In this document: piece after piece, positions 1-29,223 of the stretch
Numbering within the stretch: the stretch's first letter is position 1
Layout: every line of letters begins with the position of its first letter
Source of the DNA: Campylobacterota bacterium
Lineage (GTDB): Bacteria; Campylobacterota; Campylobacteria; Campylobacterales; Nitratiruptoraceae
Assembly (NCBI GenBank): GCA_013153095.1
Contig: JAADFB010000012.1
Location: 1 to 38,236, forward strand
Direction of reading: 5' to 3'
Length of the DNA: 38,236 nucleotides
Notes under the pieces: generated by a model
Told to the model about the DNA's origin: nothing
Databases searched by the model: none
The model's input: only the letters and a program-made list of their open reading frames with translations
Position numbers and translations under genes: made by a program

Positions 1-253
1 AACCCTTTGCGGTCGTTTCTAAAGTGTTCACATCTTGGGTATAGCTAGCGTTCCAGAGGTTGTTAATAATCCCTTGAGCATTGAAACTAACCTCCCAAAG
101 TTGAGCCGTATCGTTTGGGTTATAGACTGTAACCTCAGCACAAAAGCCATCGTTCCACTCACTCTTTTTAGCAATTTCAACGCTCAAAGGCGCACTAATC
201 ATACTGGTAGCTAAAAGAGCCAAGCCGGTTGTGGCAACAATTACTTTATTCAT
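1..253 (-). CDS. secreted protein with carbohydrate-binding module family 2 (CBM2)-like domain, partial (3' end beyond window)
   Basis: Manual translation from ATG at 253 down: MNKVIVATTGLALLATSMISAPLSVEIAKKSEWNDGFCAEVTVYNPNDTAQLWEVSFNAQGIINNLWNASYTQDVNTLETTAKG. Signal peptide followed by the W..GF.A.VTV.N....W.V.F....I...WNA spacing typical of CBM2. Not in the ORF track because it runs off the window edge. Confidence 0.7.
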   Translation of the reverse strand, partial: MNKVIVATTGLALLATSMISAPLSVEIAKKSEWNDGFCAEVTVYNPNDTAQLWEVSFNAQGIINNLWNASYTQDVNTLETTAKG

Positions 254-309
254 CCGCCATCCTTTTGGATAAAGTTGGACATTTCGTCCACCCCCTATTG
301 CCGGTGGGC
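254..309 (-). promoter_or_regulatory. structured 5' leader of the CBM2-like gene (several hairpins, RBS inside one)
   Basis: On the minus strand: CCACC(303-307)/GGTGG(288-292); TGGAC/GTCCA (276-280 with 286-290, loop GAAAT), which overlaps the first stem; ATCC-AAAA-GGAT (259-270), which contains the candidate SD AAGGAT just before the ATG. Confidence 0.35.
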
Positions 310-381
310 ATTTTTAATTATAGATGAGAAAAGAAAAAAGAAAGCTTAAAAAAGGAGTAAAAGAGTACTATTTTTGAGGGG

Positions 382-403
382 AAGAAGGAGGTTTTCCTCC
401 TTC

Positions 404-405
<2 letters not shown>
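382..405. terminator. perfect 10-bp stem-loop at the glnK 3' end (possible terminator/3' protector)
   Basis: aagaaggagg-tttt-cctccttctt; overlaps the glnK stop codon at 404-406. No clean U-tract on the minus strand. Confidence 0.4.
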
Positions 406-745
<340 letters not shown>

Positions 746-758
746 CTACTCCTTAAAT

Positions 759-2033
759 TTAAAGATTAAACCCTCGCTCTCCGTGAATTGCTTCATCAAG
801 ACCCATAACTTCAGTTTCCTCATCCACTCTACCACCACCAGTTAATAAACTAGCAACTAAATAAACGATAGCGGTTACTACTGCGGTAAAGAGCATAGTA
901 ACGATTACAGATTCAACCTGTACCAACATTTGAGCGGTTCTATCTCCGTGATCCTTTAGTGGACTTCCATCCCAAGCCAATTCTCTTAAAGCAAAAACTC
1001 CTGTTGCTAACGCTCCCCATAAACCTGCTAAAAAGTGAACTCCAAATGCGTCTAAACTATCGTCATATTTGAACACTTTTTTTAGCCAAGCTACACCTAT
1101 AAATCCAAAAACGCTTCCACCAATTCCAATAACCAAAGCTCCAAGTACATCTACAAATCCAGCTGCAGGAGTTATTGCTACCAATCCCGCTACCGCACCG
1201 GTTGCAGCTCCTAAGAGGGTTGGTTTTTTATAGACGATCCATTCAATCACTACCCAAGTTAAAGCCCCAATTGCTGCTGCAAAGTTGGTCATTAAAAGTG
1301 CGCTTCCAGCAACTCCATCGGCTGCAAATTCACTTCCCGCGTTAAATCCAAACCACCCAAACCATAAGATTGCAGCTCCTAAAGCGGTTAAGATTACACT
1401 AGAGGGATGCATCGCTTCTTTTGGATAACCTCTCCTTTTTCCTACCATCAGCGCTAAAATCAATCCTGCTAAACCGCCGTTCATATGAACAACTGTACCA
1501 CCTGCAAAATCTAAAGCACCATCATTGTATAAAAATCCACCGCCCCAAACCATATGGGTGATAGGGACATATACAAAAGTTACCCATAAAATACTAAAAA
1601 TAACCCAAGTAGAAAATTTCATCCTTTCGATCACTGAACCGCTAGCTATTGCTAAAGTAATAGCTGCAAAAGTCCCTTGAAAAGCGATGAATACAAACTC
1701 TGGATAGGTGCCACTTAAACTTTTAGTAGTTACCCCTTTTAAGAAAAGTTTATCCAGATTCCCAATTATAGCTCCATCTCCACTAAAGGCTAAAGAGTAA
1801 CCCCAAAGTACCCATACAATCGAACCGATTACATACGCAATAAACACCATCATATAGGTGTTTAAAACGTTTTTAGCCCGCGTCATCCCTCCATAAAAAA
1901 GAGCCAATCCTGCAGGAGTCATCAACATAACAAACGCGGTAGCTACGATCATCCAAGCCGTATCTCCGCTGTTAAGTTTATCCTCCGCAAAACCGGGCAA
2001 AAGCATCAGCGCAACCAGCAACCACTGCCTCAT
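759..2033 (-). CDS. amtB: ammonium transporter Amt family
   Basis: 424 aa polytopic; ALFYGGMTRAKNVLNTYMM, GGTVVHMNGGLAGLILALMVGKRRGYP and FGVHFLAGLWGALATGVFA are typical Amt motifs. Confidence 0.96.
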   Translation of the reverse strand: MRQWLLVALMLLPGFAEDKLNSGDTAWMIVATAFVMLMTPAGLALFYGGMTRAKNVLNTYMMVFIAYVIGSIVWVLWGYSLAFSGDGAIIGNLDKLFLKGVTTKSLSGTYPEFVFIAFQGTFAAITLAIASGSVIERMKFSTWVIFSILWVTFVYVPITHMVWGGGFLYNDGALDFAGGTVVHMNGGLAGLILALMVGKRRGYPKEAMHPSSVILTALGAAILWFGWFGFNAGSEFAADGVAGSALLMTNFAAAIGALTWVVIEWIVYKKPTLLGAATGAVAGLVAITPAAGFVDVLGALVIGIGGSVFGFIGVAWLKKVFKYDDSLDAFGVHFLAGLWGALATGVFALRELAWDGSPLKDHGDRTAQMLVQVESVIVTMLFTAVVTAIVYLVASLLTGGGRVDEETEVMGLDEAIHGERGFNL

Positions 2034-2095
2034 AGGAACTCCTTAAGAAAAGATTTTGATAGCCTAATTGTAACTTAGAGAGGTTAATTTTTTTG

Positions 2096-2101
2096 TATAA
2101 T
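2096..2101 (+). promoter_or_regulatory. putative sigma70 -10 element (TATAAT) for the 2126 gene
   Basis: ttttttttgTATAATttttaaac about 25 nt before the ATG, in the amtB divergent intergenic region. Confidence 0.4.
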
Positions 2102-2125
2102 TTTTAAACAGAAAGGAGTACAGTT

Positions 2126-2848
2126 ATGGAGAATTTTATAGCCAAATCTCCCCAAAGTTTAAAAGTGTTGAATGTTTTAAGAGTCTCCGCCTCTTTGCCT
2201 GTAAATATCTTAATTATTGGAGAAAAAGGAACCGGAAAAGAGACTTTAGTTAATAGTGTATTTGCTAACATTGCTAAATATGATCCTTTGGAGTTGGAAG
2301 AAGGTTTGATACCAGAAGAGAAGGAGTTTTTTGTTAGAGATTTTGAAAAGATAAACGATGCGATCTCTTTTATGAATAGGTTTAAAGGATACCGGATCGT
2401 TGCAGCTACTACTAAACCCAAAAAGGTGTTAGAAGAGTTTTTTCCAATTAGATTAACTATCCCTCCACTTAGAGAAAGGAAGGAGGATTTAGAAGAGTTA
2501 AAAAAGCTTTATATTCAAAAGGTAAAAAAGGAGTTTGAACTAGAGGAGCTTCCAAGAGATTTTGAAGTTGATTTAAGTAAAAATGCGATCTCTTTAAAAC
2601 GATCTATTTATGAAAAAGCTCTTCTAGAGAAGATGGACGAGGAGCGGTTTAAACAGATGTGTGAAGAGTTTTTTTATCCTAGGTTAGAAAAAGGTTATAA
2701 AAAGTTGATAGAGTTTTTTGAAATACCGCTTTTAAAAGCTGCTAAAAGAAAATATAAAAGCGCACTAGCTATATCAAAGGCGTTAGGAATGAACCGTGCT
2801 ACTTTAACGGGGAGGTTGAAAAAGTATAACTTAAGTGATAAAAGGTAA
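2126..2848 (+). CDS. compact NtrC-type (sigma54 AAA+-derived) regulator with C-terminal Fis-type HTH
   Basis: Walker A GEKGTGKE, RLTIPPLRERKEDLEEL (typical of NtrC-family AAA+), C-terminal AISKALGMNRATLTGRLKKYNL Fis HTH; RBS AAAGGAG. Confidence 0.7.
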   Translation: MENFIAKSPQSLKVLNVLRVSASLPVNILIIGEKGTGKETLVNSVFANIAKYDPLELEEGLIPEEKEFFVRDFEKINDAISFMNRFKGYRIVAATTKPKKVLEEFFPIRLTIPPLRERKEDLEELKKLYIQKVKKEFELEELPRDFEVDLSKNAISLKRSIYEKALLEKMDEERFKQMCEEFFYPRLEKGYKKLIEFFEIPLLKAAKRKYKSALAISKALGMNRATLTGRLKKYNLSDKR

Positions 2849-3544
2849 TTCTATATGGATTTTATCTTTTTCAAAAGAGATGATAAACTCCTCATCTTTT
2901 ATCGGTTCTAGATTGCGAATTAGGGAAGATTGTATCTCTAATACAATTACTTGATATTTTCTATTTTCGATTTTTATACTTCGTCCTGTAGCGATAGCTA
3001 CTTTAATTTTTATCTCTTTACTCTCTTTTAAAGCTTGGAAAATTTTGTTTAAGAGTTGAAGGAATCGTGCAATATTGATTTTAAATTCTGGGATAGAGAC
3101 ATCGTAGTCGGTTACAATTTTTACCTTATCTTCTAAATTGGTATTGATAGCTATATCGATTAGGGTAAAGATATTACTAAATTGTAGCTCCTCTTTTTCA
3201 CTTCTAAACCGTTTACTACAAACGTTTTTATGGAGCATTATTCCTATCATATCGCTATCTAAATACCCTACCGTCAATGCGCAAAAACTTGAATGTCCAA
3301 TATCTATATCCAAAAAAGAGTGCTTAAATCCAAATCTCATCGAGGCGTGGGAAACGGCAAGGTTAAAAAGCTCATCTTTATCGATTACGGAGAGTATATA
3401 CTCTCCTTCATCATTGTAATCTAGAACTTGGGCATTGGAATCAAAGATTATAAAAGGATTGATCCCTTTTTCGATAAACTCTTTATAAAGCTCCATATCA
3501 AAATTATAACTAAACTTTTGTCCACCCGTGAAGCTTTTTTGCAC
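2831..3544 (-). CDS. hypothetical protein, possibly degenerate PAS/histidine-kinase-like
   Basis: 237-aa ORF; 'GINPFIIFDSNAQVLDYNDEGE' resembles a PAS-like N-terminus. A start at the internal Met near 3496 (MELYKEF) is also plausible. Confidence 0.5.
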   Translation of the reverse strand: MQKSFTGGQKFSYNFDMELYKEFIEKGINPFIIFDSNAQVLDYNDEGEYILSVIDKDELFNLAVSHASMRFGFKHSFLDIDIGHSSFCALTVGYLDSDMIGIMLHKNVCSKRFRSEKEELQFSNIFTLIDIAINTNLEDKVKIVTDYDVSIPEFKINIARFLQLLNKIFQALKESKEIKIKVAIATGRSIKIENRKYQVIVLEIQSSLIRNLEPIKDEEFIISFEKDKIHIELPFIT

Positions 3545-3980: not shown

Positions 3981-4648
3981 TCTTCCCTCCAGATCATCAC
4001 TGCAAATCTTCCTGTAACCTTATCTCGACGATAGGAGTAGTAATTGGGATTACAAGAGGTACAAATATTTACATCTTTTACACTCTCTACCCCACCTCTA
4101 GCAAGCCCTTCATAGATTATCTGTTTAATGTCCAAAAATTTCCCATTTTTTATAAACTTTGCAGGGTATTTTTTTGCTAATGAAGGAGATATTTCATAAC
4201 AGCAACTATGTATCCCAGGTGAAATAATAGCTTTTATCTCTTTTGCCCCAAACTGTTCTCTCATCATTTTTATTCCCTTTTCTACAATGCCTAAAGTTGC
4301 CCCTTTCCGTCCTGCGTGTAGAGCTGCAATAACCCCTCTCTCTTGATCAAAAAGTAACACTCCAAAACAGTCTGCAACCATAACTGCTAAAGGAAGATTA
4401 ACTTTATCAGTAATTAACCCATCTGCAGTAGGAGGAGTAGAAAAGTGAGGGATATAAACAATCTCGTTACTGTGGATCTGATTGGCAAATTGAGCTTGTG
4501 GAATATTTGCTCTTGCATAAAGGAGAAGCCTATTTTTATCAACATTTCTAGGATCGTCTCCTACATGATACGCAATATTTAAAGAATCAAAAGGCGCTGG
4601 ACTAACCCCACCAAAACGATCACTTATTAGATAACGAATTTTGCTCAT
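3977..4648 (-). CDS. pgeF: purine nucleoside phosphorylase / polyphenol oxidase family (YfiH/PgeF/LACC1)
   Basis: NQIHSNEIVYI, VMVADCFGVLLFDQERGVIAALHAGRKG, SPGIHSCCYEI motifs. The track start (4684) is probably too early; MSKIRYLISDRFGG starts at 4648. Confidence 0.88.
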   Translation of the reverse strand: MSKIRYLISDRFGGVSPAPFDSLNIAYHVGDDPRNVDKNRLLLYARANIPQAQFANQIHSNEIVYIPHFSTPPTADGLITDKVNLPLAVMVADCFGVLLFDQERGVIAALHAGRKGATLGIVEKGIKMMREQFGAKEIKAIISPGIHSCCYEISPSLAKKYPAKFIKNGKFLDIKQIIYEGLARGGVESVKDVNICTSCNPNYYSYRRDKVTGRFAVMIWREE

Positions 4649-5891
4649 AGATAAACACCTTCCCAATTGGATGACAGCCTTCATTATCGCAGTTTGGGGT
4701 TATTTTTATTACCACTTCTCCTTTTTCAACCTTTAACCATACCTTTTCACTAAAATCAAACAGATAACCATCTCTTAGGGTGGAAATTTTAAGGTATCTA
4801 GCCCTGGTAATGGGAGGATGAATTAGAACAAGGCCGTTTTTATACTGACGCCATAAAACTCTTCCCTTTTGCCAAGAGGCTCCTAATGGCTCTCCTAAAT
4901 TTGCAAAGTAGATAGTATCTCGCTCTAAGGAGTGGTCATAAGGAACCTCTATGAAAGGGATAAAGTCGCTAAGCCGAGTCATTGCATAAACATAATGGAT
5001 ATTTTTGGTAGGAGAAAGAAGAGTGCCTCCTTGCGTATAAAGGGGGGCTAAATAATTCATATAGATAAAATTTTTAAAGCCAAATGTAGTATAATGTTTT
5101 TTCAATTTGCTTAAATAGGTGAAGTAGTGAATAATCTCTTTTGTTGGAACAAATCTTGTAACCTCTTTACCACTTTTATCCTTTTCATTAGTGGCAATAT
5201 AGCTTTCGGTCATATCGTAATGGGTATAAGCTAAAAGTTCAGGATTACGATAAGCTTGATTGGTAACTATTAATACCCCCTTCTTTTTTAATTTGGATAA
5301 AAAGTTTCCAATGCAATGTCTAAAGGCTTTTTCTGGATGTCTTCGTTTAAAAGCTCTAAGAAGGGGTAAAAACTTCTTCTCATACAGATAATCTTCGTTT
5401 GCCCAATCAAAAAATAATCCATCCAGCCCATACAATCTAATCTGCTCTAAAAGGTAAGCCACCCGCCTCTCTACAACCTCCTCATTACATAAATCGTAAT
5501 AAAAGTCCGCATTATTTGGCATATAGTGGGGATTTAAGGTAGCTCTTTCTTTGTTTAGGTAAGCCCAACGTGCAAAGGGATTGTCTTCAGTTTCGTGGAG
5601 ATAAAAGCCAGCTAGCCAAACATATGCTATCTTTTTATTAAATCCTTTAAAATTTACACTTTGGAGATCGTTAAAGCCTCCTACCTCAGCTATATAAAAA
5701 TGTTTTGCAAAATGTAAAGAATCTTTTTCCCAAGCTCTAGCAGTTGCATAAAACCCTAAACTGGTAGGATAACAGAGCTGTTTATCATAACATGGTTTAT
5801 ACTCCTCTTTGGTAACAATTTTCATAGCTAGCAAGCTTACTCCTATAGTCAATGCGGCAAGAGTTTTTTTCATATTTTGCGATTTTACCAC
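4620..5891 (-). CDS. exported putative TIM-barrel glycoside-hydrolase-like protein
   Basis: N-terminal signal (MKKTLAALTIGVSLLA); 'RLYGLDGLFFDWANE' and 'GVLIVTNQAYRN...YDMTESYIA' fit the beta-strand acidic residues of putative glycosidases. No family assignment attempted. Confidence 0.6.
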   Translation of the reverse strand: MVKSQNMKKTLAALTIGVSLLAMKIVTKEEYKPCYDKQLCYPTSLGFYATARAWEKDSLHFAKHFYIAEVGGFNDLQSVNFKGFNKKIAYVWLAGFYLHETEDNPFARWAYLNKERATLNPHYMPNNADFYYDLCNEEVVERRVAYLLEQIRLYGLDGLFFDWANEDYLYEKKFLPLLRAFKRRHPEKAFRHCIGNFLSKLKKKGVLIVTNQAYRNPELLAYTHYDMTESYIATNEKDKSGKEVTRFVPTKEIIHYFTYLSKLKKHYTTFGFKNFIYMNYLAPLYTQGGTLLSPTKNIHYVYAMTRLSDFIPFIEVPYDHSLERDTIYFANLGEPLGASWQKGRVLWRQYKNGLVLIHPPITRARYLKISTLRDGYLFDFSEKVWLKVEKGEVVIKITPNCDNEGCHPIGKVFIYEQNSLSNK

Positions 5892-10655: not shown

Positions 10656-10659
10656 CCCT
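10635..10659. terminator. 10-bp perfect stem-loop between convergent trpS and repeat-protein gene
   Basis: agggctattt-ttgag-aaatagccct; contains the trpS stop (10653-10655) and touches the stop of the minus-strand gene (10659-10661). Confidence 0.5.
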
Positions 10660-12500
10660 TAAGGAGAAAAGAACATTACTTTTGCTGGGAGGGTAAGAGA
10701 AACATTTGAATCGGAAACAGAAATATTTTTCTCTCCTTCTAATTTAATTGCAATTTCTAACACTTTGGTAAGATCATCTGATTTCCCATCTCCGTCCACA
10801 TCAAGATATTTGAAAGTATGGTTTTCATTTGCCCCCATTAATTTAAAAACTTTTTTTCCATCCCTAGTAATATATAGCCAAGAAAATCTCTTATCTTTTT
10901 CTTCAAAATCTCTTATGTTTACGAAAAATCCTGATGGGGGAGCAGATATATTAAAATCTTCAGGAAGGGATATTTCCTTAAAGCCAAAAACGCTATTAGA
11001 AGTAGGTTCATTTCCTAATAATTGATATATTGTTCCCTTCTCAGAAAGATATATCCAATCGCTTGGAGCTGATTTTGAGTCTTTATTAAAATCATAATAA
11101 TAGAAGTATCCATTTATATTAAAGCTTTCTTTTTGAAGCAAAAAACTTTTTAGATTTTGAAGATAGGACTCAATATTTATATTTTCTTCTTCCTCTTTTT
11201 CTTCCTCTACAGGGTTTTTAGATAAAGTAGAAGTTGGAGCTAATTGTACTTGGGAAGAATTAGATACACTCCAAGATGGAAAAATACATTTTACTGATCC
11301 ATTTATCTCTGGAGCTTTTCCTCCATGCCATGGATTTCCCCAAGTAATCACACTTCCATCTTCTTTTAACGCAGCAAAAGCTCCTTGTGTAGAATAAATA
11401 TGGTCTACTTTTATTAATTCTTTTTCTACGTTTGAACTATCTCCTCCATAATCAGGATCGCCCCAAGTAACAACTGTCCCATCTTCTTTTAAGGCTGCAA
11501 ATGCGAAATCTGTAGAAAATATCGCTTTTACATCTTTTAACTTTTCCGCTACTGAGCTACTATCTCCTCCTGCATCACCCCAAGTAACAACTGTTCCATC
11601 TTCTTTTAAGGCTGCAAATGCTGAGAAAGTTGAATAAACAGAGATTACATTTATTAACTTTTCTCTTACTAGTGAACTATCTCCCCCTGAATACATATCA
11701 CCCCAAGTAATGACTGTTCCATTTTTTTTAAGAGCAGCGAATGCATATCCTGTAGAAACGATAGTTTTAACATCTTTTATATTCCTTAATATTTTTTCAG
11801 TTTCTGCACTATTTCCACCGTATTTAGCATTACCCCAAGTAACAATTGACCCATCTTTTTTTAATGCTGCGAAGGCAAAATAATTAGCAAATATATCAAC
11901 AACATCTTTTAGTTCATTTTTAACAGAAGAACTATCTCCGCCAAAGTTAGGATTACCCCACGTTACTACACTCCCATCTTTCTTTAATGCTGCAAATGCC
12001 TTAGGAGTAGAAACTATCTTTTGAATATTTACTAATTTTGAATCTACATTCGAACTATCTCCTCCATCTTCGCTATTCCCCCATGTTACAACTGTTCCAT
12101 CTTTTCTTAAAGCGGCAAAAGCATCAATAGTAGAAGAGATTGTAATCACATCTGTTAATTTTTCTTTCACTATATAACTATCTCCACCTGCTATTTCATC
12201 CCCCCAAGTAATTACTTTCCCATCTTTATCTAAAGCAGCAAAGGCTGCATCTGTGGAAAATATAGCAACAATATTTTTCAATTGACTTTGTACAATACTA
12301 CTATCTCCTCCACTGAAAGGTTCCCCCCAGCTGATTATATTCCCATCCTCTTTTAACGCTACAAATGCCCAAGGATTTATTTCTCCTGCCTTAGTTTTCC
12401 CTGGATAGATCGTTTTTTCCCATCCATCTTTATAGCATTGTGAAAAAGCGAGAGAAATGAAAACGGAATAAAACAAAAGAGTCCTTAACCAAATTCTCAT
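10659..12500 (-). CDS. secreted RCC1-like tandem-repeat protein with EF-hand-like Ca-binding motif
   Basis: Signal peptide MRIWLRTLLFYSVFISLAFSQC; nine ~40-aa repeats of AFAALKEDGTVVTWGDPDYGGDSSNVxxKLxxV; C-terminal DVDGDGKSDDL. Confidence 0.8.
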   Translation of the reverse strand: MRIWLRTLLFYSVFISLAFSQCYKDGWEKTIYPGKTKAGEINPWAFVALKEDGNIISWGEPFSGGDSSIVQSQLKNIVAIFSTDAAFAALDKDGKVITWGDEIAGGDSYIVKEKLTDVITISSTIDAFAALRKDGTVVTWGNSEDGGDSSNVDSKLVNIQKIVSTPKAFAALKKDGSVVTWGNPNFGGDSSSVKNELKDVVDIFANYFAFAALKKDGSIVTWGNAKYGGNSAETEKILRNIKDVKTIVSTGYAFAALKKNGTVITWGDMYSGGDSSLVREKLINVISVYSTFSAFAALKEDGTVVTWGDAGGDSSSVAEKLKDVKAIFSTDFAFAALKEDGTVVTWGDPDYGGDSSNVEKELIKVDHIYSTQGAFAALKEDGSVITWGNPWHGGKAPEINGSVKCIFPSWSVSNSSQVQLAPTSTLSKNPVEEEKEEEENINIESYLQNLKSFLLQKESFNINGYFYYYDFNKDSKSAPSDWIYLSEKGTIYQLLGNEPTSNSVFGFKEISLPEDFNISAPPSGFFVNIRDFEEKDKRFSWLYITRDGKKVFKLMGANENHTFKYLDVDGDGKSDDLTKVLEIAIKLEGEKNISVSDSNVSLTLPAKVMFFSP

Positions 12501-20343: not shown

Positions 20344-21241
20344 AGAGGGGATAACTATTAGATTGGAAGGGGAGGTATTCCCTTCCAAAAAAGAGGATAT
20401 TTTAGCTACTATGGATGGTCGAGTTAAAGAGGTTTTAGTCAAAGAAGGAGATAAGGTTAAAAAAGATCAGGTGTTGATAAAGTTTGAAACCACTATCACA
20501 AACCTAGATATTGAAAAGACCCAACGAGAGCTTGATTATCTTCAAGAGTTTCAACGTTTTATAAAGGATAGCAAAAAAAACAACATAAATCTAGCAATGG
20601 TCAATATAGCTAGGTTAAATCTTGAGCAAATTTCCAAACTGAAGTCTCAAGGTTACTCCGATTCTATGGAGTTACATAACGCTAAAACCGCATACGCTTC
20701 CTCCCTTCACGCTCGCTATAGTGAGGATGAGATGAAAAAGGAAAAACTACACTCTCTTCAAGAAAGGATCACTTTAACTCAAGCTGAACTCAAGAAGCTT
20801 AAATATTTATTAGACTTAAGTGAGGTTAAAAGTGATATTAGCGGTTTTATAGCCGATATAAAAACTCAACCTGGAGATTATGTAGCTAAGGGGAGCAAAT
20901 TAGGAACAATTGTAAACTTAGATAGAGTGATTGTAAAAGCTGGAATAGCTCCCGGACTTCTTCCTTTTGTTAAAAAGGGAAAAAAGGTAAAAATAAACTT
21001 TATTACAACTCCCCCCTATAGCGTAGAAGCTAATATTACTAGAGTCGTAATGATAACCGATCCCGATTTTGGAAGGATGACGGTAGAGATCGAAATTCCT
21101 AACAAAAACTACCTACTTCAAGAGGAGACCAAAGCGCTAGTTACCGTTTATTTGGAAAAAGAGGAGCAGGAGTTTATTAAAAAACATTTTATCGAAGATG
21201 CAGACGATACCGTTTATGAAGTTAAGGCTCAAAACTACTGA
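20261..21241 (+). CDS. HlyD/RND-type periplasmic adaptor (membrane fusion) lipoprotein
   Basis: MWQGLLILAMLLGGC lipobox; biotinyl-lipoyl-like ATMDGRVKEVLVKEGDKVKKDQVLIKFET and coiled coil, then SDISGFIADIKTQPGDYVAKGSKLGTIV. Confidence 0.88.
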   Translation: MWQGLLILAMLLGGCAKTAEQKEIKKSKEGITIRLEGEVFPSKKEDILATMDGRVKEVLVKEGDKVKKDQVLIKFETTITNLDIEKTQRELDYLQEFQRFIKDSKKNNINLAMVNIARLNLEQISKLKSQGYSDSMELHNAKTAYASSLHARYSEDEMKKEKLHSLQERITLTQAELKKLKYLLDLSEVKSDISGFIADIKTQPGDYVAKGSKLGTIVNLDRVIVKAGIAPGLLPFVKKGKKVKINFITTPPYSVEANITRVVMITDPDFGRMTVEIEIPNKNYLLQEETKALVTVYLEKEEQEFIKKHFIEDADDTVYEVKAQNY

Positions 21242-23397
21242 GCCTCTTCTTGTGCTAACTTCTCTAAATACTCACTATTGTCTATCTCATAAACTGTAAC
21301 CAGGTTACTAGAGTAAAAAACTCTTATATTGTTGTGAAAAGCTTGGTAGATAGAAACCCAACTTTTTAAACTTGTCATTACTCTACTTCTCCAACGGTAG
21401 TACCAGTCATCACTTTCGTGGAATCGATGGGGAATATCTTCTATAAAGATGTAAATTTTTTGAGAAGGGATTGGTAGATAGCGATCGGTTGGATCATACC
21501 AGCGTACGAAATCGCTAGAGTTTATAAAAAAACCTTTATTTAACACCTTAGAATACTCTTCAGAAAAAGCCACCACCGTCCAGGTGTGTAACCTATTTTC
21601 TTTAATTATTTTGTACAACGCCATAGAAACATCGCTATAGTTAAATCGATCTACATACCTCATCAACTCTTCACTATCTTTATAATGGGGAACAAAAACC
21701 GCCAAAAGAAAAAATTGGATGTAGAGCAGTCCTAAGAAAAGATAGCGGGTAATATTTCCTAAGAAAAGCTTTATAGCTAGATAGATTAATCTTAAAGTAC
21801 AAGCGACTAAAATAGTGGTAGCTAAAAGAAGATATTCCGCTGCCCTGCCCTGATGGATAAGTTTGCTAAATCCTAAATTTTCGGCAAAGTAGATAAGAAA
21901 AATCCCAATAGGAATCAATAAAAAGCTACTAAAGTAAAATTTCCTTTTCCCTAAGAAAGCTATAAGAAAAAGCGCCACACTGTAAAGAAAATAGTAAAGG
22001 TGAATTGGAGTTAAAACGGAGATTGTAACCTCTTCCAATCCTGTGGCGACTAAATCTTCTACCGCTTGTTTAGTTCCAAAGAGACGATCTAAAAAAGGGG
22101 CGGCAGCTCCAAAATCTTGCGGTATCCCATACTTTAAAACCGATAGCATCCACCCGTTTCCCAAAATTGCCGCTATGAAAATAGCTTTTAATCCCTTTTT
22201 TAACAACTTCCAATTAAGTTTAAAGGTGATGGTTGCATTGAGAGCTATCAAAAGGCTAGGTACTATCAACGCGATCGCCCCACCCCCGTGGAAGATAAAA
22301 ACCAACATTAAACTTAAAGTGTAGTTTAAAAAGTGGCGCGGTTGTCCTCTATCCACCGCTTTGATGAGGTAAAAAAGGTTTAAAAGAAAAAAAGCGGAAG
22401 CAAATTCATACGCCATCCCGCTAAAATAACGAAGATAGGGATCAAAGTTGGGTCCTGTAGCCGCTTGGGCTAAATCTTTATCTAGTGTGTAAAATTTAAG
22501 TCCAAAGAGATCAATAATTTCGGGGTTAGTAGTTGGTGCCACTCCAGTGATTAAAAAGGAGTTTAACGGTGAACCTAATAAAACTATCCCATAAATCATC
22601 AATGTGGAAAGGGCGAGTAAAGAGGAGAGGGTAAACCGTTTTGCTACAAAGTAGACTCCCAAAAGTAAAAAGGAGATTAGTAAAAGGGGATAGATGTTGA
22701 AAAGAACAATAGAGTCGATATTGGTTAAAACCTGCATTGTAAAGATAAAGATACTGATCCCGTAAAAATCTGCCCCTGCGGTTTTGCCATCAGCATATAA
22801 GATATTTTTATGAAGAGTTGCCACCCATTCAATAAATTGGGTTGTATCTGGAAGAGGGTTAGATAAAGAGATAAAACAGCGGTAGCCTAAGGTGTAAATG
22901 AGATAAACAAAGACCAATAGAAAAAGGAATCGATAAAGAAGATGGTAAAAACTTAAATGTAAAAAATAGTTTTCTAACGCTAAAACCAATTTTCTTTTAG
23001 CCTCTTCAAAATACTTATCTTTCTCATCGAAAAAGTCAAACACCTTAATTAAAAACTGATTGTAGTTATAGCTTAAGAAAGGTTTTAAGGAACGTTTGTA
23101 ATAGAATTTAAAAAAAAGTATCTTCGTCAAAAGTAGAGAGGTTAGAAAAGTTGTAAGACTAAATATTTTTAAAAACACCATCAACGGAACTACAAGTTCC
23201 ACATAGGCTAACATATAAAGGATATTTGAAATAATATTTTCTAATCCTCCTCCAGCATACCGTTGCGGGAAAATATGTCTAGGAAGGTAGATAAAAAAAA
23301 GGATCGCCACTATAAAAAGTAAGATCGCATTAGGAAGAGTTACTAAAACGATCTCTTTTATTAAATTGGCATCGATAAAAATCTTTTCACTCGGCAT
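21235..23397 (-). CDS. large polytopic membrane protein, paralog 1 of 3 (function unknown)
   Basis: 720 aa; shares PRHIFPQRYAGGGLENIISNILYMLAYVELVVPLMVFLKIF, GYRCFISLSNPLPDT, VYIFIEDIPHRF and LVTVYEIDNSEYLEKL with the two other copies. Confidence 0.9.
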   Translation of the reverse strand: MPSEKIFIDANLIKEIVLVTLPNAILLFIVAILFFIYLPRHIFPQRYAGGGLENIISNILYMLAYVELVVPLMVFLKIFSLTTFLTSLLLTKILFFKFYYKRSLKPFLSYNYNQFLIKVFDFFDEKDKYFEEAKRKLVLALENYFLHLSFYHLLYRFLFLLVFVYLIYTLGYRCFISLSNPLPDTTQFIEWVATLHKNILYADGKTAGADFYGISIFIFTMQVLTNIDSIVLFNIYPLLLISFLLLGVYFVAKRFTLSSLLALSTLMIYGIVLLGSPLNSFLITGVAPTTNPEIIDLFGLKFYTLDKDLAQAATGPNFDPYLRYFSGMAYEFASAFFLLNLFYLIKAVDRGQPRHFLNYTLSLMLVFIFHGGGAIALIVPSLLIALNATITFKLNWKLLKKGLKAIFIAAILGNGWMLSVLKYGIPQDFGAAAPFLDRLFGTKQAVEDLVATGLEEVTISVLTPIHLYYFLYSVALFLIAFLGKRKFYFSSFLLIPIGIFLIYFAENLGFSKLIHQGRAAEYLLLATTILVACTLRLIYLAIKLFLGNITRYLFLGLLYIQFFLLAVFVPHYKDSEELMRYVDRFNYSDVSMALYKIIKENRLHTWTVVAFSEEYSKVLNKGFFINSSDFVRWYDPTDRYLPIPSQKIYIFIEDIPHRFHESDDWYYRWRSRVMTSLKSWVSIYQAFHNNIRVFYSSNLVTVYEIDNSEYLEKLAQEEAQ

Positions 23398-24853
23398 CTA
23401 ACACTTCAAGTTTTTTTCTTATTCCATCACTTGCATCTAGAAACGCTTGAATAATTTGTGCTTCTACTAGTTTATCTTTTTGGGCATGAATATCCTCTAA
23501 AGCCGCTTCGTGTGAAAACGCTTCCCGGTAAGCTCTAGGACTTGTCATTCCTACGTAATACTCAGCTAAGGCTACTATTTGAGCGTGGATAGGAATATCT
23601 TTCCCTTTTAATCCAAACGGGTATCCACTTCCATCAAACCGCTCATGGTGATATTTCACAATAGGAGCGATGTTATAGATGTTGCTAATAGGTTCAACTA
23701 TTACACTTCCTACAATTGGGTGGTATTTGATTAGGTCTAACTCTTTTTTATTGATAGTTTTACTATCTAAAAAGCTTTCAATCTTTCCAACCATCCCTAT
23801 ATCGTGAAGCTCAGCTCCTAGAGAAATAGTATCGATAGAGTGTTCATCTAAAAATAAATTCTTAGCTACCTCAACTGCAACGATTTGTACCTTTTTGGAG
23901 TGGTTTTTAAAATAGGGGCTTTGAAGTTCTAAGGCTCTATTGGAGAGACGAAGGAAGTGGATATAATTGGTTACCATCTTACTATTTTCGTTGATATGTT
24001 CAAAATAGATTCCCGCCATATCTAAGAAAGAGCCTATCTCACTAATTTGCTCTTTTGTTAAAGGTTGAAGTGTAAAAATGTCCATAATGTATGGAGTGTT
24101 ACGGATGTAAAACCTTTTTTTATACTTTCCTTTTTTAGGGTCTTTAAACACTTTTATTTTGTTGGGTTTTTCCCTATTTAATAAGATAATCCCCGTAGTC
24201 CCTTCAACCTTAAGCAATAAAGAGATCACGAACTTTAAAAAAGTCTCCGTACCCGATTGAAATCGCATCATTGAAGAAAACACCTCTTTGGAGGCGTTAG
24301 AAACATTGGAAACGCTATACTCTTCCAGTAACAAAAACGATTTTGTATAGTAACTTAGGAATAGTCTTAAAAATCCCTCAATCTCTTCTAATTCTAACTC
24401 TTTTCTGCTAAAAGCAGCTAAAAGCGCTTGTCCATCCACCGACTCTATATAATAGACGTTAAAATTTCCTATTTTGGTATGGGGGGTAATATCTTTTCTA
24501 TAGAGTCTATTTTTTATCCCTACCTTTCCCTCATTTGAGGCAACTTCCAACACAAAAATATCCCCTCGTCGAATGTAAAGAGCGATCTCATCCAATCCAA
24601 AAATAGAGCGATTTTTGATTATAAACTCTTCAATCTCCCCAACTTTACCTTTTTTAGCTAATTCTAAAAAGGCTTTATTAAACTGCATCAGTTTATATTT
24701 TAAAAGCGCTTTATCTTTAAAAAGTTTTATAGATAAAAGAAAAAAGATAACTGCAAAAAGTAGAAAAACCCACCAAAAATTTATGGCAATAAAAAATATA
24801 ACTTCGTCTAGCTTTTCCCTGATTAGCGGGTTTTCTAAAGGGTTATTTACCAT
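23387..24853 (-). CDS. TM + GAF-like + HD-GYP domain protein (c-di-GMP related; substituted catalytic motif)
   Basis: N-terminal TM (FWWVFLLFAVIFFLL); LHDIGMVG...IKYHPIVG...KYHHERFDGSGYPFGLKGKDIPIHAQIVALAEYYVGMTSPRAYREAF. Confidence 0.88.
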   Translation of the reverse strand: MVNNPLENPLIREKLDEVIFFIAINFWWVFLLFAVIFFLLSIKLFKDKALLKYKLMQFNKAFLELAKKGKVGEIEEFIIKNRSIFGLDEIALYIRRGDIFVLEVASNEGKVGIKNRLYRKDITPHTKIGNFNVYYIESVDGQALLAAFSRKELELEEIEGFLRLFLSYYTKSFLLLEEYSVSNVSNASKEVFSSMMRFQSGTETFLKFVISLLLKVEGTTGIILLNREKPNKIKVFKDPKKGKYKKRFYIRNTPYIMDIFTLQPLTKEQISEIGSFLDMAGIYFEHINENSKMVTNYIHFLRLSNRALELQSPYFKNHSKKVQIVAVEVAKNLFLDEHSIDTISLGAELHDIGMVGKIESFLDSKTINKKELDLIKYHPIVGSVIVEPISNIYNIAPIVKYHHERFDGSGYPFGLKGKDIPIHAQIVALAEYYVGMTSPRAYREAFSHEAALEDIHAQKDKLVEAQIIQAFLDASDGIRKKLEVLDAE

Positions 24854-27020
24854 CTCTTTCCCTTTTTAATCGCTCTACATATGCACTATTATCTATTTCA
24901 TACACAGTTAAAAGTTTTGTCTTAGCATATACCCTTATATTATCGTGCGTAGAGGCGTAAATAGTTACCCACTCTTTTAATCTATTTTGAATTTCTGTCC
25001 TCCAGCGGTAATACCACTCATCTTTACCGGTGTATTTATGAGGAATATCCTCTACAAAGATATACACTTTAGGAGTGGGGATAGGTAGTTCCTGAGGTAA
25101 AGGGGAGTAATCGAGTAAGAATTCATTGGTATTAATCATAAACCCTTTTCCCAACACTTTAGAGTATTCTTGAACATAAGAGATTACTGTCCAGGTCATA
25201 GGGCGATTTTCTTTTACAATCTGGTAAAGATGGTAAGGGATTTCCGAGTATTGGACCCCGTTGATAAACCTTTTGAAAAATTCCACCTCTTTGTAATGGG
25301 GAATAAGAAAGATAGAGATAAGCAACATTATAAACACTATTACTAAAAACACTATTTTGGCTAACTCTCCTAAAAGCTTTTTTAACGGAATCCATAAAAA
25401 AAGTTTTAAGTAACACGCCACAATTACGGTAATACTTAAGTAAAGATACTCAGCTCCTCTAGAAGGGTGAACCAACTTACTTAGCCCCAAGTTTTCTGCA
25501 TAATAAACTACAAAAAAACCTAAAGGAATAAGTAAAAAACTGCTAAAGTAAAACCCCTTTTTAAAAAACCGTGCCAAAATAAAAAAAGAGATTGCCGAGA
25601 TGAGTAAAAAAAGATGCATATAGGTTAGATGGGAGATAGTAACCTCTTCAATTCCCGCTGAAACGATCTCTTTTATAGCTTGTTTAGTTCCAAAGAGACG
25701 ATCTAAAAAAGGGGCGGCAGCTCCAAAATCTTGCGGTATCCCATACTTTAAAACCGATAACATCCACCCGTTTCCCAAAATAGCAGCAAACAAGATCGCC
25801 TTTAATCCCCGTTTTAGAAGGTCTAGATTCAATTTAAAACTAACTAAAGCGTTTAAGGCGATCAAAATACTAGGAGCTATCAATGCGATCGCCCCACCCC
25901 CGTGAAAAATAAAAACTAGCATCAATGAAAGAGAGTAGTTATAAAGGTATCGGGTGTAACCTCTATCTAATGCTTTAATTAAGTAAAAGAGGTTAATTAA
26001 AAACATTGTGGAAGAGAATTCATACGCCATACCGCTAAAGTAGCGAATGTAGGGAGTCATTGAAACTTTTTCTAGATGGAGGTTAGGGTTTTCAAAATAC
26101 TCTTTAGGAATTTGGTAAAGTTTAAAGTGCCAAAACCTAATAAAATCGGGATTGCTGGTAGTTGTAATCCAAGTGGCGATATGTTCATTCCAAGGAGAGC
26201 TTAGTAAAATGGAACCGTAAATTAAAAGAGTTGCCATAGCTAAAAGAGAGGTTAGGGTAAATCTTTTCATTACAAAATAGACGCCCAAAAACAAGAAAGT
26301 GATTAACAAAAGTGGATAGATATTAAAAAGGATAATAGAATCGATATGGGTAAAGGTTTGAAGGAAAAAGATAAAAACGCTTATCCCGTAAAAATCTGCC
26401 CCTGCGGTTTTGTCATCAGCATAAAGGATATTGTCGTTTAGATTTGCTACCCATTCAAAAAATTGGCTGGTGTCGGGTAGAGGGTTTGCTAAAGAGATAA
26501 AACAGCGATAGCCTACGATGTAAACCAGATGGATAAAAATTAAACCTAAAAGAATTTTTTTAAAAAACTGGTAGTAGTTGAGGTTTTTAACATATAAAAA
26601 AAGAACGTTGTAAAGTTGTTTGCGTAGGGAGATAATTTTTTGGTAAGGATCATCTAAGAAATCGTAAACAACTATTAAAATTTTACTTTTTAGATTTAAA
26701 AGATACTCTTTTGGGTCTTGCTTGTAATAAAACTTCACAAAGGCTAATTTAGTCAAAAACAGCACTGCTAAAAAAGAGGGAAGGGTAAAAATTTTTAAAA
26801 ATACCATTAATGGGACTACTATCTCAATATATGCTAACATATACAAGATATTGGAGATGATATTCTCTATCCCTGCCCCAGCGTAGCGTTGAGGAAAAAG
26901 CCTTCTTGGAAGAAATAGGAAAAGAAGGTAGGCTATAATGAAGAGTAAGAGGGCATTTTTTATATTAAGATAGATAATTTTGTGGATAATCTCCAGATCA
27001 AGATATTCATCTTTTAACAA
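24843..27020 (-). CDS. large polytopic membrane protein, paralog 2 of 3
   Basis: 725 aa, clear end-to-end homolog of 21235..23397 and 27052..29223. Confidence 0.9.
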   Translation of the reverse strand: MLKDEYLDLEIIHKIIYLNIKNALLLFIIAYLLFLFLPRRLFPQRYAGAGIENIISNILYMLAYIEIVVPLMVFLKIFTLPSFLAVLFLTKLAFVKFYYKQDPKEYLLNLKSKILIVVYDFLDDPYQKIISLRKQLYNVLFLYVKNLNYYQFFKKILLGLIFIHLVYIVGYRCFISLANPLPDTSQFFEWVANLNDNILYADDKTAGADFYGISVFIFFLQTFTHIDSIILFNIYPLLLITFLFLGVYFVMKRFTLTSLLAMATLLIYGSILLSSPWNEHIATWITTTSNPDFIRFWHFKLYQIPKEYFENPNLHLEKVSMTPYIRYFSGMAYEFSSTMFLINLFYLIKALDRGYTRYLYNYSLSLMLVFIFHGGGAIALIAPSILIALNALVSFKLNLDLLKRGLKAILFAAILGNGWMLSVLKYGIPQDFGAAAPFLDRLFGTKQAIKEIVSAGIEEVTISHLTYMHLFLLISAISFFILARFFKKGFYFSSFLLIPLGFFVVYYAENLGLSKLVHPSRGAEYLYLSITVIVACYLKLFLWIPLKKLLGELAKIVFLVIVFIMLLISIFLIPHYKEVEFFKRFINGVQYSEIPYHLYQIVKENRPMTWTVISYVQEYSKVLGKGFMINTNEFLLDYSPLPQELPIPTPKVYIFVEDIPHKYTGKDEWYYRWRTEIQNRLKEWVTIYASTHDNIRVYAKTKLLTVYEIDNSAYVERLKRERDGK

Positions 27021-27051: not shown

Positions 27052-29223
27052 CTATTTAACATCGCTTTCCCTTTTTAGACGCTCAATGTACTCACTATTG
27101 TCGATCTCATAAACGCTTAAAAGTTTGGTTTTGGAATAAAGTTTTATGTTGTTATGAGTTGAAGAGTAAACCCCTATCCACTCTTTCAATCTATCTTGAA
27201 TATCTCTTCTCCATCTATAAAACCACTCCTCTCTCCCTAAATATCTGTGAGGAATATCTTCTACAAAAATATATATCTTTTTGGTAGGGATGGGTAATTC
27301 TTTCTCTTTAGGGGAATAGTTGAGTAAAAAATTGCTAGAGTTTATCATAAAACCGCGCCCTTTAACTTTAGAATACTCTTGTACGTAAGAGACTACTGTC
27401 CAGTTCATCGGTCGATTCTCTTTAACTATTGAGTAAAGTTTTAAAGGTATGTCTGAATATTGAACTCCGTTTATAAAACGCTTAAAAAAATCTGTCTCTT
27501 TATAGTGAGGGATAAAAAAAATTGAAATTATATATACTCCCACTATTGCTAATAAAAAGATAATCTCCCCAACTTTTTTAAAAACTTTTTTTAAAAAAAG
27601 CCATACCGCCTTTATATAACAACTTATAATTATAGTCACACTTAGGTAAAGATGGGTCACCCCTTTTGAAGGATGAAGCAGTTTATAAAAACCCAAATTT
27701 TGGGCAAAAAAGAGAAGAAAAAAACCTAAAGGGATAAGTAAAAAACTGCTAAAGTAAAACCCTTTTTTTAAAAATCGTGCTATAACAAAAAAAGAGATTG
27801 CAGAAGTAAGTAAAAAAAGGTGATGGTAAGTTAAATGGGAGATAGTAACCTCTTCTAATCCTAATTCTATTTTATCTGTTTCTATGTTAAGAAGGGTTTT
27901 TAAAAAAGGGATGTCTAAAAAATCGGGAAGTACTTTATACTTAAACACTGCTAAAAACCATAAATTTCCAATAAAAGTAGTTAGAAGGATAGCTTTTAAA
28001 AATTGGGGGAACTTTTTTACCTTAAAACTAACAAGGGCATTCAAAAAAATAAGAAATGTAGGAACAATTAAAGGTATACTTCCCTCTGGATGAAAGATAA
28101 AAATTAAAAGTAAAGAGAAGGTATAGTTGTAAAGGTAACGGTTATAGCCTTTGTCCAAAAACTTTATAAGATAGAAGAGATTAATTAAAAACAAAGTGGC
28201 GGAGAGTTCATAAGCCGTTCCACTAAAGAAGCGAATATAAGGATTCATAGAGATTTTTTCCAAATAGGTAGTTGGGTTTTGAAAATAAAAAGAAGGGATT
28301 TGGTAAAGTTTAAACTCCTCCCATAAGGATATAATTTCTGGGTTAGAGGTTGTAGTAATCCAAGTAGCTACATTCTCTCCAATAAAAGAGGATATAACGA
28401 CAGAACCAAAGATTAGCAGTGTTGCCATCGCTACTAAAACACTTAGGCTAAACCGTTTAATTACAAAATATACCCCTAGGAGTAGGAAGGTTATCACTAT
28501 TAACGGGTAGATGTTAAAAAGAATAATAGGATCGATGTTAGTAAAAAGTTGCAAAATAAAGATAAAAATAGCTAACCCGTAAAAAAGTTCTCCTGTAATA
28601 GCTTTGTCATCTGCATAGAGAATGTTTAAGTTTAGATCGGCTACCCACTCAAAAAAGTAACTTGTTTGGGGTAACGGATTGGCTAAGGAGATAAAACAGC
28701 GGTATCCTAAAAGATAAATTAAGTAGATAAAAATTGTGATAAGGAAGACTCTTTTCAAAAAGTAGAAGTAATTAAGATGTTGGAAATAGGAAAAAAGAGT
28801 TAAAGAGATACGTTTTTTTAGTGCTTTAAATTTTAGATAGGGTTCATCTAAAAGATCGTAGAGGAAAATAATTATTTTGTTTCCAATGTTAAAAAGATAC
28901 TCTTTGGGACTTTGATGATAATAATATTTGACAAAGAACAGTTTAGTTAATACTAACATTGCCAAAAAAGAGGGAAGGCTAAAAATCTTTAAAATTACCA
29001 TTAAGGGAACTATCAGCTCCAAATACACCAACATATACAAAATGTTGGAAATTACATTTTCTAATCCTGCTCCTGCGTAGTCTTGAGGGAAAAGTCGACG
29101 GGGAAGAAAGATAAAAAGTAAATAACTAATTATAAAGAGTAAAATTATATTTTTTAAGTTGAGAGAAAATATCTGTTGTAAAACCTCAACATCGATATAA
29201 TCTGGATATTTAGGTTTTAACAA
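27052..29223 (-). CDS. large polytopic membrane protein, paralog 3 of 3
   Basis: 723 aa, same architecture as paralogs 1 and 2; the central GIPQDFGAAAPFLDRLFGTKQ segment is diverged (VLPDFLDIPFLKTLLNIET). Confidence 0.9.
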   Translation of the reverse strand: MLKPKYPDYIDVEVLQQIFSLNLKNIILLFIISYLLFIFLPRRLFPQDYAGAGLENVISNILYMLVYLELIVPLMVILKIFSLPSFLAMLVLTKLFFVKYYYHQSPKEYLFNIGNKIIIFLYDLLDEPYLKFKALKKRISLTLFSYFQHLNYFYFLKRVFLITIFIYLIYLLGYRCFISLANPLPQTSYFFEWVADLNLNILYADDKAITGELFYGLAIFIFILQLFTNIDPIILFNIYPLIVITFLLLGVYFVIKRFSLSVLVAMATLLIFGSVVISSFIGENVATWITTTSNPEIISLWEEFKLYQIPSFYFQNPTTYLEKISMNPYIRFFSGTAYELSATLFLINLFYLIKFLDKGYNRYLYNYTFSLLLIFIFHPEGSIPLIVPTFLIFLNALVSFKVKKFPQFLKAILLTTFIGNLWFLAVFKYKVLPDFLDIPFLKTLLNIETDKIELGLEEVTISHLTYHHLFLLTSAISFFVIARFLKKGFYFSSFLLIPLGFFLLFFAQNLGFYKLLHPSKGVTHLYLSVTIIISCYIKAVWLFLKKVFKKVGEIIFLLAIVGVYIISIFFIPHYKETDFFKRFINGVQYSDIPLKLYSIVKENRPMNWTVVSYVQEYSKVKGRGFMINSSNFLLNYSPKEKELPIPTKKIYIFVEDIPHRYLGREEWFYRWRRDIQDRLKEWIGVYSSTHNNIKLYSKTKLLSVYEIDNSEYIERLKRESDVK

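Follow-up and report, generated by a model that had tools for sequence, protein, structure and literature searches.

The truncated open reading frame (ORF) at positions 2-253 of the analyzed DNA probably encodes the N-terminus of a secreted, modular CBM2-GH9 endoglucanase, with the catalytic half predicted from the domain composition of its relatives. The window (the whole stretch of 38,236 nucleotides that was analyzed) is an entire contig, C69, of a campylobacterial genome assembly (1.13 Mb, 92 contigs, 71% complete). The ORF lies on the reverse strand, comprises 84 aa from its ATG and is open at the contig end. The relevant features of the window are as follows (L036 denotes the closest homolog, described below):

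2..253, reverse strand: first 84 codons of a truncated gene for a secreted CBM2 protein, a probable CBM2-GH9 endoglucanase (ORF, Pfam CBM_2, homology to L036)
194..253, reverse strand: signal-peptide-like N-terminus, residues 1-20 (translation read by eye, alignment with the N-terminus of L036)
14..181, reverse strand: CBM2 domain, profile positions 3-61 of 101 (Pfam CBM_2)
261..266, reverse strand: AAAAGG, Shine-Dalgarno-like, within a small ATCC-AAAA-GGAT hairpin (sequence, fold)
317..322, reverse strand: TATAAT, -10-like hexamer, located 64-69 bases ahead of the start codon (sequence)
404..742, reverse strand: glnK (P-II), the upstream, co-directional neighbor, 150 bp away (Pfam P-II, E-value 1.1e-35)
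759..2033, reverse strand: amt, ammonium transporter, marker of the conserved locus (Pfam, E-value 1.5e-118)

The CBM2 fragment and its fold

The Pfam CBM_2 profile (PF00553) matches residues 25-80 of the 84-aa ORF with 32.5 bits (E-value 1.2e-7; cut-off 24 bits). The match is genuine and beyond chance, in agreement with the initial annotation, which had read a CBM2 domain after a signal peptide at the window edge; it spans no more than the initial ~60% of the domain, the remainder being located beyond the contig end, and the genome (71% complete) gave no other CBM_2 match when scanned throughout. Residues 1-20 (MNKVIVATTGLALLATSMIS) appear signal-peptide-like by inspection, as expected for the secreted protein originally proposed.

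The closest match to the fragment is L036, a protein from the metagenome-assembled genome of Campylobacteraceae bacterium T11 (JALWDJ010000020.1). The two share 56% of residues along an 82-aa alignment that takes in the signal peptide and 63% within the mature domain, which is N-terminal in both. The structural model of its CBM2 domain (pLDDT 96.8) has CBM2 and chitin-binding domains as leading PDB neighbors, with a TM-score of 0.80 to the Cellulomonas fimi CBM2 (6qfs); further neighbors are the CBM2-type domains of endoglucanase D and a Bacillus chitinase, and the assignment is also borne out by searching PDB sequences with a profile. The 50 structural matches listed for this model are led by GH20/chitinase accessory domains and CBM2, and no adhesin immunoglobulin domain is found among them. 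A different immunoglobulin-like adhesin fold, considered at the outset as an alternative to CBM2, can thus be rejected for the homologous domain of L036 as modeled.

Although the L036 domain has the same fold as CBM2a of C. fimi Cex/Xyn10A (1exg, 6qfs), sequence identity to the latter is only ~24%. The first two surface tryptophans on the Cex binding face have counterparts in W33 and W67 of the window protein (W13 and W47 in mature-domain numbering), and these two residues are invariant across the 17 domains aligned (the fragment and 16 complete campylobacterial domains); the third binding-face aromatic position falls past the contig end. The campylobacterial domains also exhibit a conserved pair of cysteines (GFC...FGYC), predicted to form a disulfide, whereas Cex has no Cys at these positions.

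Catalytic partners of campylobacterial CBM2 domains

L036 is a full-length protein of 1096 aa that consists of two CBM2 domains, a proline/threonine linker, a GH9 domain and a C-terminal domain of another type, referred to here as X. Its GH9 domain was identified with an E-value of 3e-133, with Thermobifida fusca E4 (1js4) as the nearest solved structure (2.4e-125), and the GH9 catalytic motifs DAGD, NPHHR/A and NEVATDYNAG are kept in the relatives. L036 differs from the window protein in being complete, with the C-terminal X, and in its gene neighborhood.

A scan of genome contigs with the 84-aa query returned no matches and search patterns could not be drawn from the CBM2 alignment because of its divergence, so GH9 was used as bait to collect relatives. 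The 12 best CBM2 matches to the fragment all reside in GH9 proteins and the first GH9-less one ranks 13th, in a ranking of loci partly gathered with that bait. Since the bait favors GH9 loci, for the census of partners 399 genomes of the order were instead scanned with CBM_2, without selection on GH9. CBM2 is present in 12 of the 399 (the window genome among them), a rarity that bears out the initial view of the domain as unexpected in chemolithotrophic Campylobacterota. The 11 genomes other than the window genome encode 16 CBM2 proteins, which combine the domain with GH9 (11 of 16), with X only (4 of 16) or with neither (1 of 16). The best match, the 12 best matches and the majority of the census therefore all argue for GH9 as the partner of the window CBM2, as does the CBM2-GH9 gene of the congener G014 described below.

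An alternative that we regard as unlikely is that the CBM2 precedes X, a previously undescribed ~400-aa TIM-barrel-like domain, and not GH9, in which case the product would remain a secreted enzyme that degrades polysaccharide. All four GH9-less CBM2 proteins with X have CBM2 near the N-terminus, and some campylobacterial proteins with CBM2 directly after the signal peptide carry X only, which counts against a GH9 partner; L036 itself possesses both GH9 and X. However, the X-only proteins match the window CBM2 more weakly, with 58 bits at best (first domains: 51, 41 and 38 bits), than does L036 (105 bits).

Domain X is secreted and occurs in L036 and in five other fetched proteins, some of them from closely related genomes, where it is 50-64% identical to the L036 copy and linked to CBM2 with or without GH9 (coordinates: L036, 5342-6544; L046, 2719-3915; L167, 256-1452; L173, 10-1191; L178, 16-1200; L179, 16-1200). 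All copies share an invariant MEPEFN motif. Neither Pfam nor the PDB sequences gave a match to the domain. In its model (pLDDT 75) it is similar to the TIM barrels of clan GH-A (GH53, GH5, GH26), though only with TM-scores below 0.6, and it may represent a new glycoside hydrolase family.

To return to the preferred CBM2-GH9 architecture, a tree of 81 GH9 domains, sampled as the best 80 matches to one query, groups 12 domains labeled as Campylobacterota together with one from Chromatiaceae and one from a Chloroherpeton-labeled bin (support 100/99), separately from all other phyla sampled. The GH9 endo/exocellulase Cel9A/E4 of T. fusca likewise has a CBM2, which is C-terminal and accompanied by CBM3c and Fn3 (PMC6731012), whereas in the window protein CBM2 is N-terminal and the domain scan of the relatives revealed no CBM3. 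AMOR_GH9A, a GH9 cellulase from a deep-sea vent metagenome (SP-GH9-CBM3; PMC6731012), is alike in its vent origin and in the catalytic family predicted for the window protein, but carries CBM3 and lacks CBM2. At the start of some campylobacterial CBM2-GH9 proteins (L034, L038, L018) CBM2 is preceded by DUF4214, possibly a surface or secretion module.

Two proteins of ~1920 aa, each with a second gene after it, were found in a cave Sulfurovum (L044, 164-5947) and in a bin labeled as a marine rock biofilm bacterium (L042, 3086-8836). The former, which was scanned, joins GH9, CBM2, cytochrome c and PSD/DUF1588-1592, i.e. a cellulase fused to heme domains. CBM2-bearing redox proteins of Teredinibacter (PMC10916295) offer a comparison for both.

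The amt-glnK locus and the contig end

Analysis of the genomic neighborhood revealed that amt and glnK are conserved in 15 of 15 congeners (amt 85-92% identical). In several congeners glnK is followed by a convergent rarA and in others by unrelated genes; CBM2 is found beside glnK in none of the 14 congeners read at that place. The spot downstream of glnK (254-403 of the window; the same place in L139-L152) is accordingly variable, being occupied by rarA, by various genes or by the CBM2 gene. The GC content of the ORF is 43%, compared with a contig mean of 35% and a 95th percentile of 41% for segments of equal length, and its third-position GC is 0.43, whereas six further genes in the window have values of 0.27-0.33; the deviation is calculated from 84 codons. 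Because no congener has CBM2 at this place, the GC content is raised and CBM_2 is rare in the order, the gene appears to have been inserted downstream of amt-glnK in this lineage specifically, apparently by lateral transfer, as far as so short a sequence can indicate.

The high GC content, the position at a contig end and the lack of a congener with a CBM2 gene by glnK could also be explained by an artefact of assembly or binning, with the first few hundred bases derived from another organism and joined as a chimeric contig end. We consider this explanation highly improbable: the closest homologs of the fragment are from Campylobacterota, a congener has a CBM2-GH9 gene elsewhere in its genome, and the GH9 genes of relatives also break at contig ends, which fits multi-copy genes better than foreign joins. 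In the congener G014, one contig end carries a CBM2 that continues into the beginning of a GH9 domain, while two C-terminal halves of GH9, cut at the same place and 79% identical in DNA, are found at two other contig ends. This suggests that assemblies break at GH9 genes because several similar copies exist; the number of GH9 genes is probably undercounted, and similar copies may have caused the break of the window contig too. GH9 genes at contig ends were seen in G014 (end of C22, end of C25, start of C26), in G042 (end of C216) and at the start of L035. The search for the missing half in the window's own genome (71% complete) identified neither a GH9 domain (PF00759) nor a neighboring contig with rarA (only a distant 37% match). 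The lack of a GH9 domain weighs against the predicted partner, although the genome is incomplete and the gene is cut.

The CBM2 gene may be transcribed separately, from its own promoter, since the TATAAT hexamer lies upstream of it and a hairpin is found at the end of glnK. The promoter and terminator scan passed no element near the gene, the hexamer having no -35 partner at the threshold. Rfam searches over positions 1-3000 gave only chance-level matches, with no riboswitch in the leader. The fold of the leader is unremarkable (z -1.4) and the genome contains no second full copy of the leader, the hairpin core alone giving short, weak matches.

The exported glycosidase-like ORF noted initially at a distance of ~5 kb is indeed present (4620-5891, reverse strand; GLDGLFFDWAN), overlapping the start of a Cu-oxidase_4 gene, but it has no sequence match in Pfam, NCBIfam or PDB, and no link to the CBM2 gene was found. 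Another ORF (10659-12500, reverse strand) encodes a signal-peptide-like protein with RCC1 repeats.

Exopolysaccharide genes, substrate and biological role

The initial annotation had suggested that the CBM2 protein may bind the host's own exopolysaccharide (EPS) or act as an adhesin. The bacterial-cellulose protein BcsB is absent from the window's own genome (71% complete) and from 58 of 60 relatives, and the relatives that carry GH9 are among those lacking it. The EPS cluster of the window is Pel-like, with PelF (DUF3492, 2.9e-44) and with PelG just below its cut-off; the Pel polymer is of GalNAc type and is not a known ligand of CBM2. The own-EPS reading is weak on account of the missing BcsB and the Pel-like cluster, binding of the organism's own cellulose is unlikely, and an accessory protein of a self-cellulose (Bcs) EPS was rejected as a candidate. 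Three paralogous membrane proteins of ~720 aa (21235-23397, 24843-27020 and 27052-29223) form a cluster that includes an HD-domain protein and adjoins the Pel-like genes; the first two, which were scanned, have no Pfam match.

The same genes bear on the possibility that the window protein is a non-catalytic CBM2 adhesin or matrix protein that binds polysaccharide. Such a protein would be compatible with a window in which the contig ends at base 1, ahead of any catalytic part, and it has a potential counterpart in L176, the one census protein that contains several CBM2-like repeats but, within the stretch that was read, no GH9 and no X. However, the other 15 of the 16 campylobacterial CBM2 proteins have a catalytic-like partner, and this, together with the lack of BcsB and the Pel-like character of the nearby EPS cluster, makes a purely binding role very unlikely. 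The homologs are cellulase modules, and neither the own-EPS nor the adhesin proposal found support.

As a CBM2-GH9 endoglucanase, the window protein would be exported by its putative signal peptide, and a second CBM2 plus a linker would probably come after its N-terminal CBM2. The N-terminal CBM2 would anchor the enzyme on the flat face of crystalline beta-1,4-glucan via the exposed tryptophans, and the GH9 catalytic domain, as predicted from the relatives, would cut cellulose by the inverting GH9 mechanism. Detrital cellulose and the matrices of other organisms are candidate natural substrates; we speculate that the enzyme could be used to open cellulose-containing detritus, the biofilm of other organisms or animal matrices, for sugars or for penetration.

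Vent Campylobacterota are regarded as autotrophic producers of organic carbon. We found no report of CBM2-GH9 cellulases in Campylobacterota in the literature searched, a search that most subscription papers fall outside of. Sulfurovum is abundant on sunken wood, where it has been discussed as a sulfide oxidizer (PMC5266260). Our analysis suggests that a few chemolithotrophic vent and cave Campylobacterota carry cellulose-degrading enzymes. A broader proposal, which we put forward only tentatively and consider rather doubtful, is that the Campylobacterota of vents and sulfidic caves own a cellulase lineage comprising CBM2-GH9 proteins, CBM2-X proteins and the GH9-CBM2-cytochrome c-PSD giants of the cave Sulfurovum, that some of these 'autotrophs' attack extracellular polysaccharide, perhaps in a manner coupled to extracellular electron transfer, and that the gene in the window counts as a recently acquired member of this set. 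If true, a rare and distinct lineage of secreted cellulases would mean that some vent Campylobacterota attack insoluble polysaccharide too.
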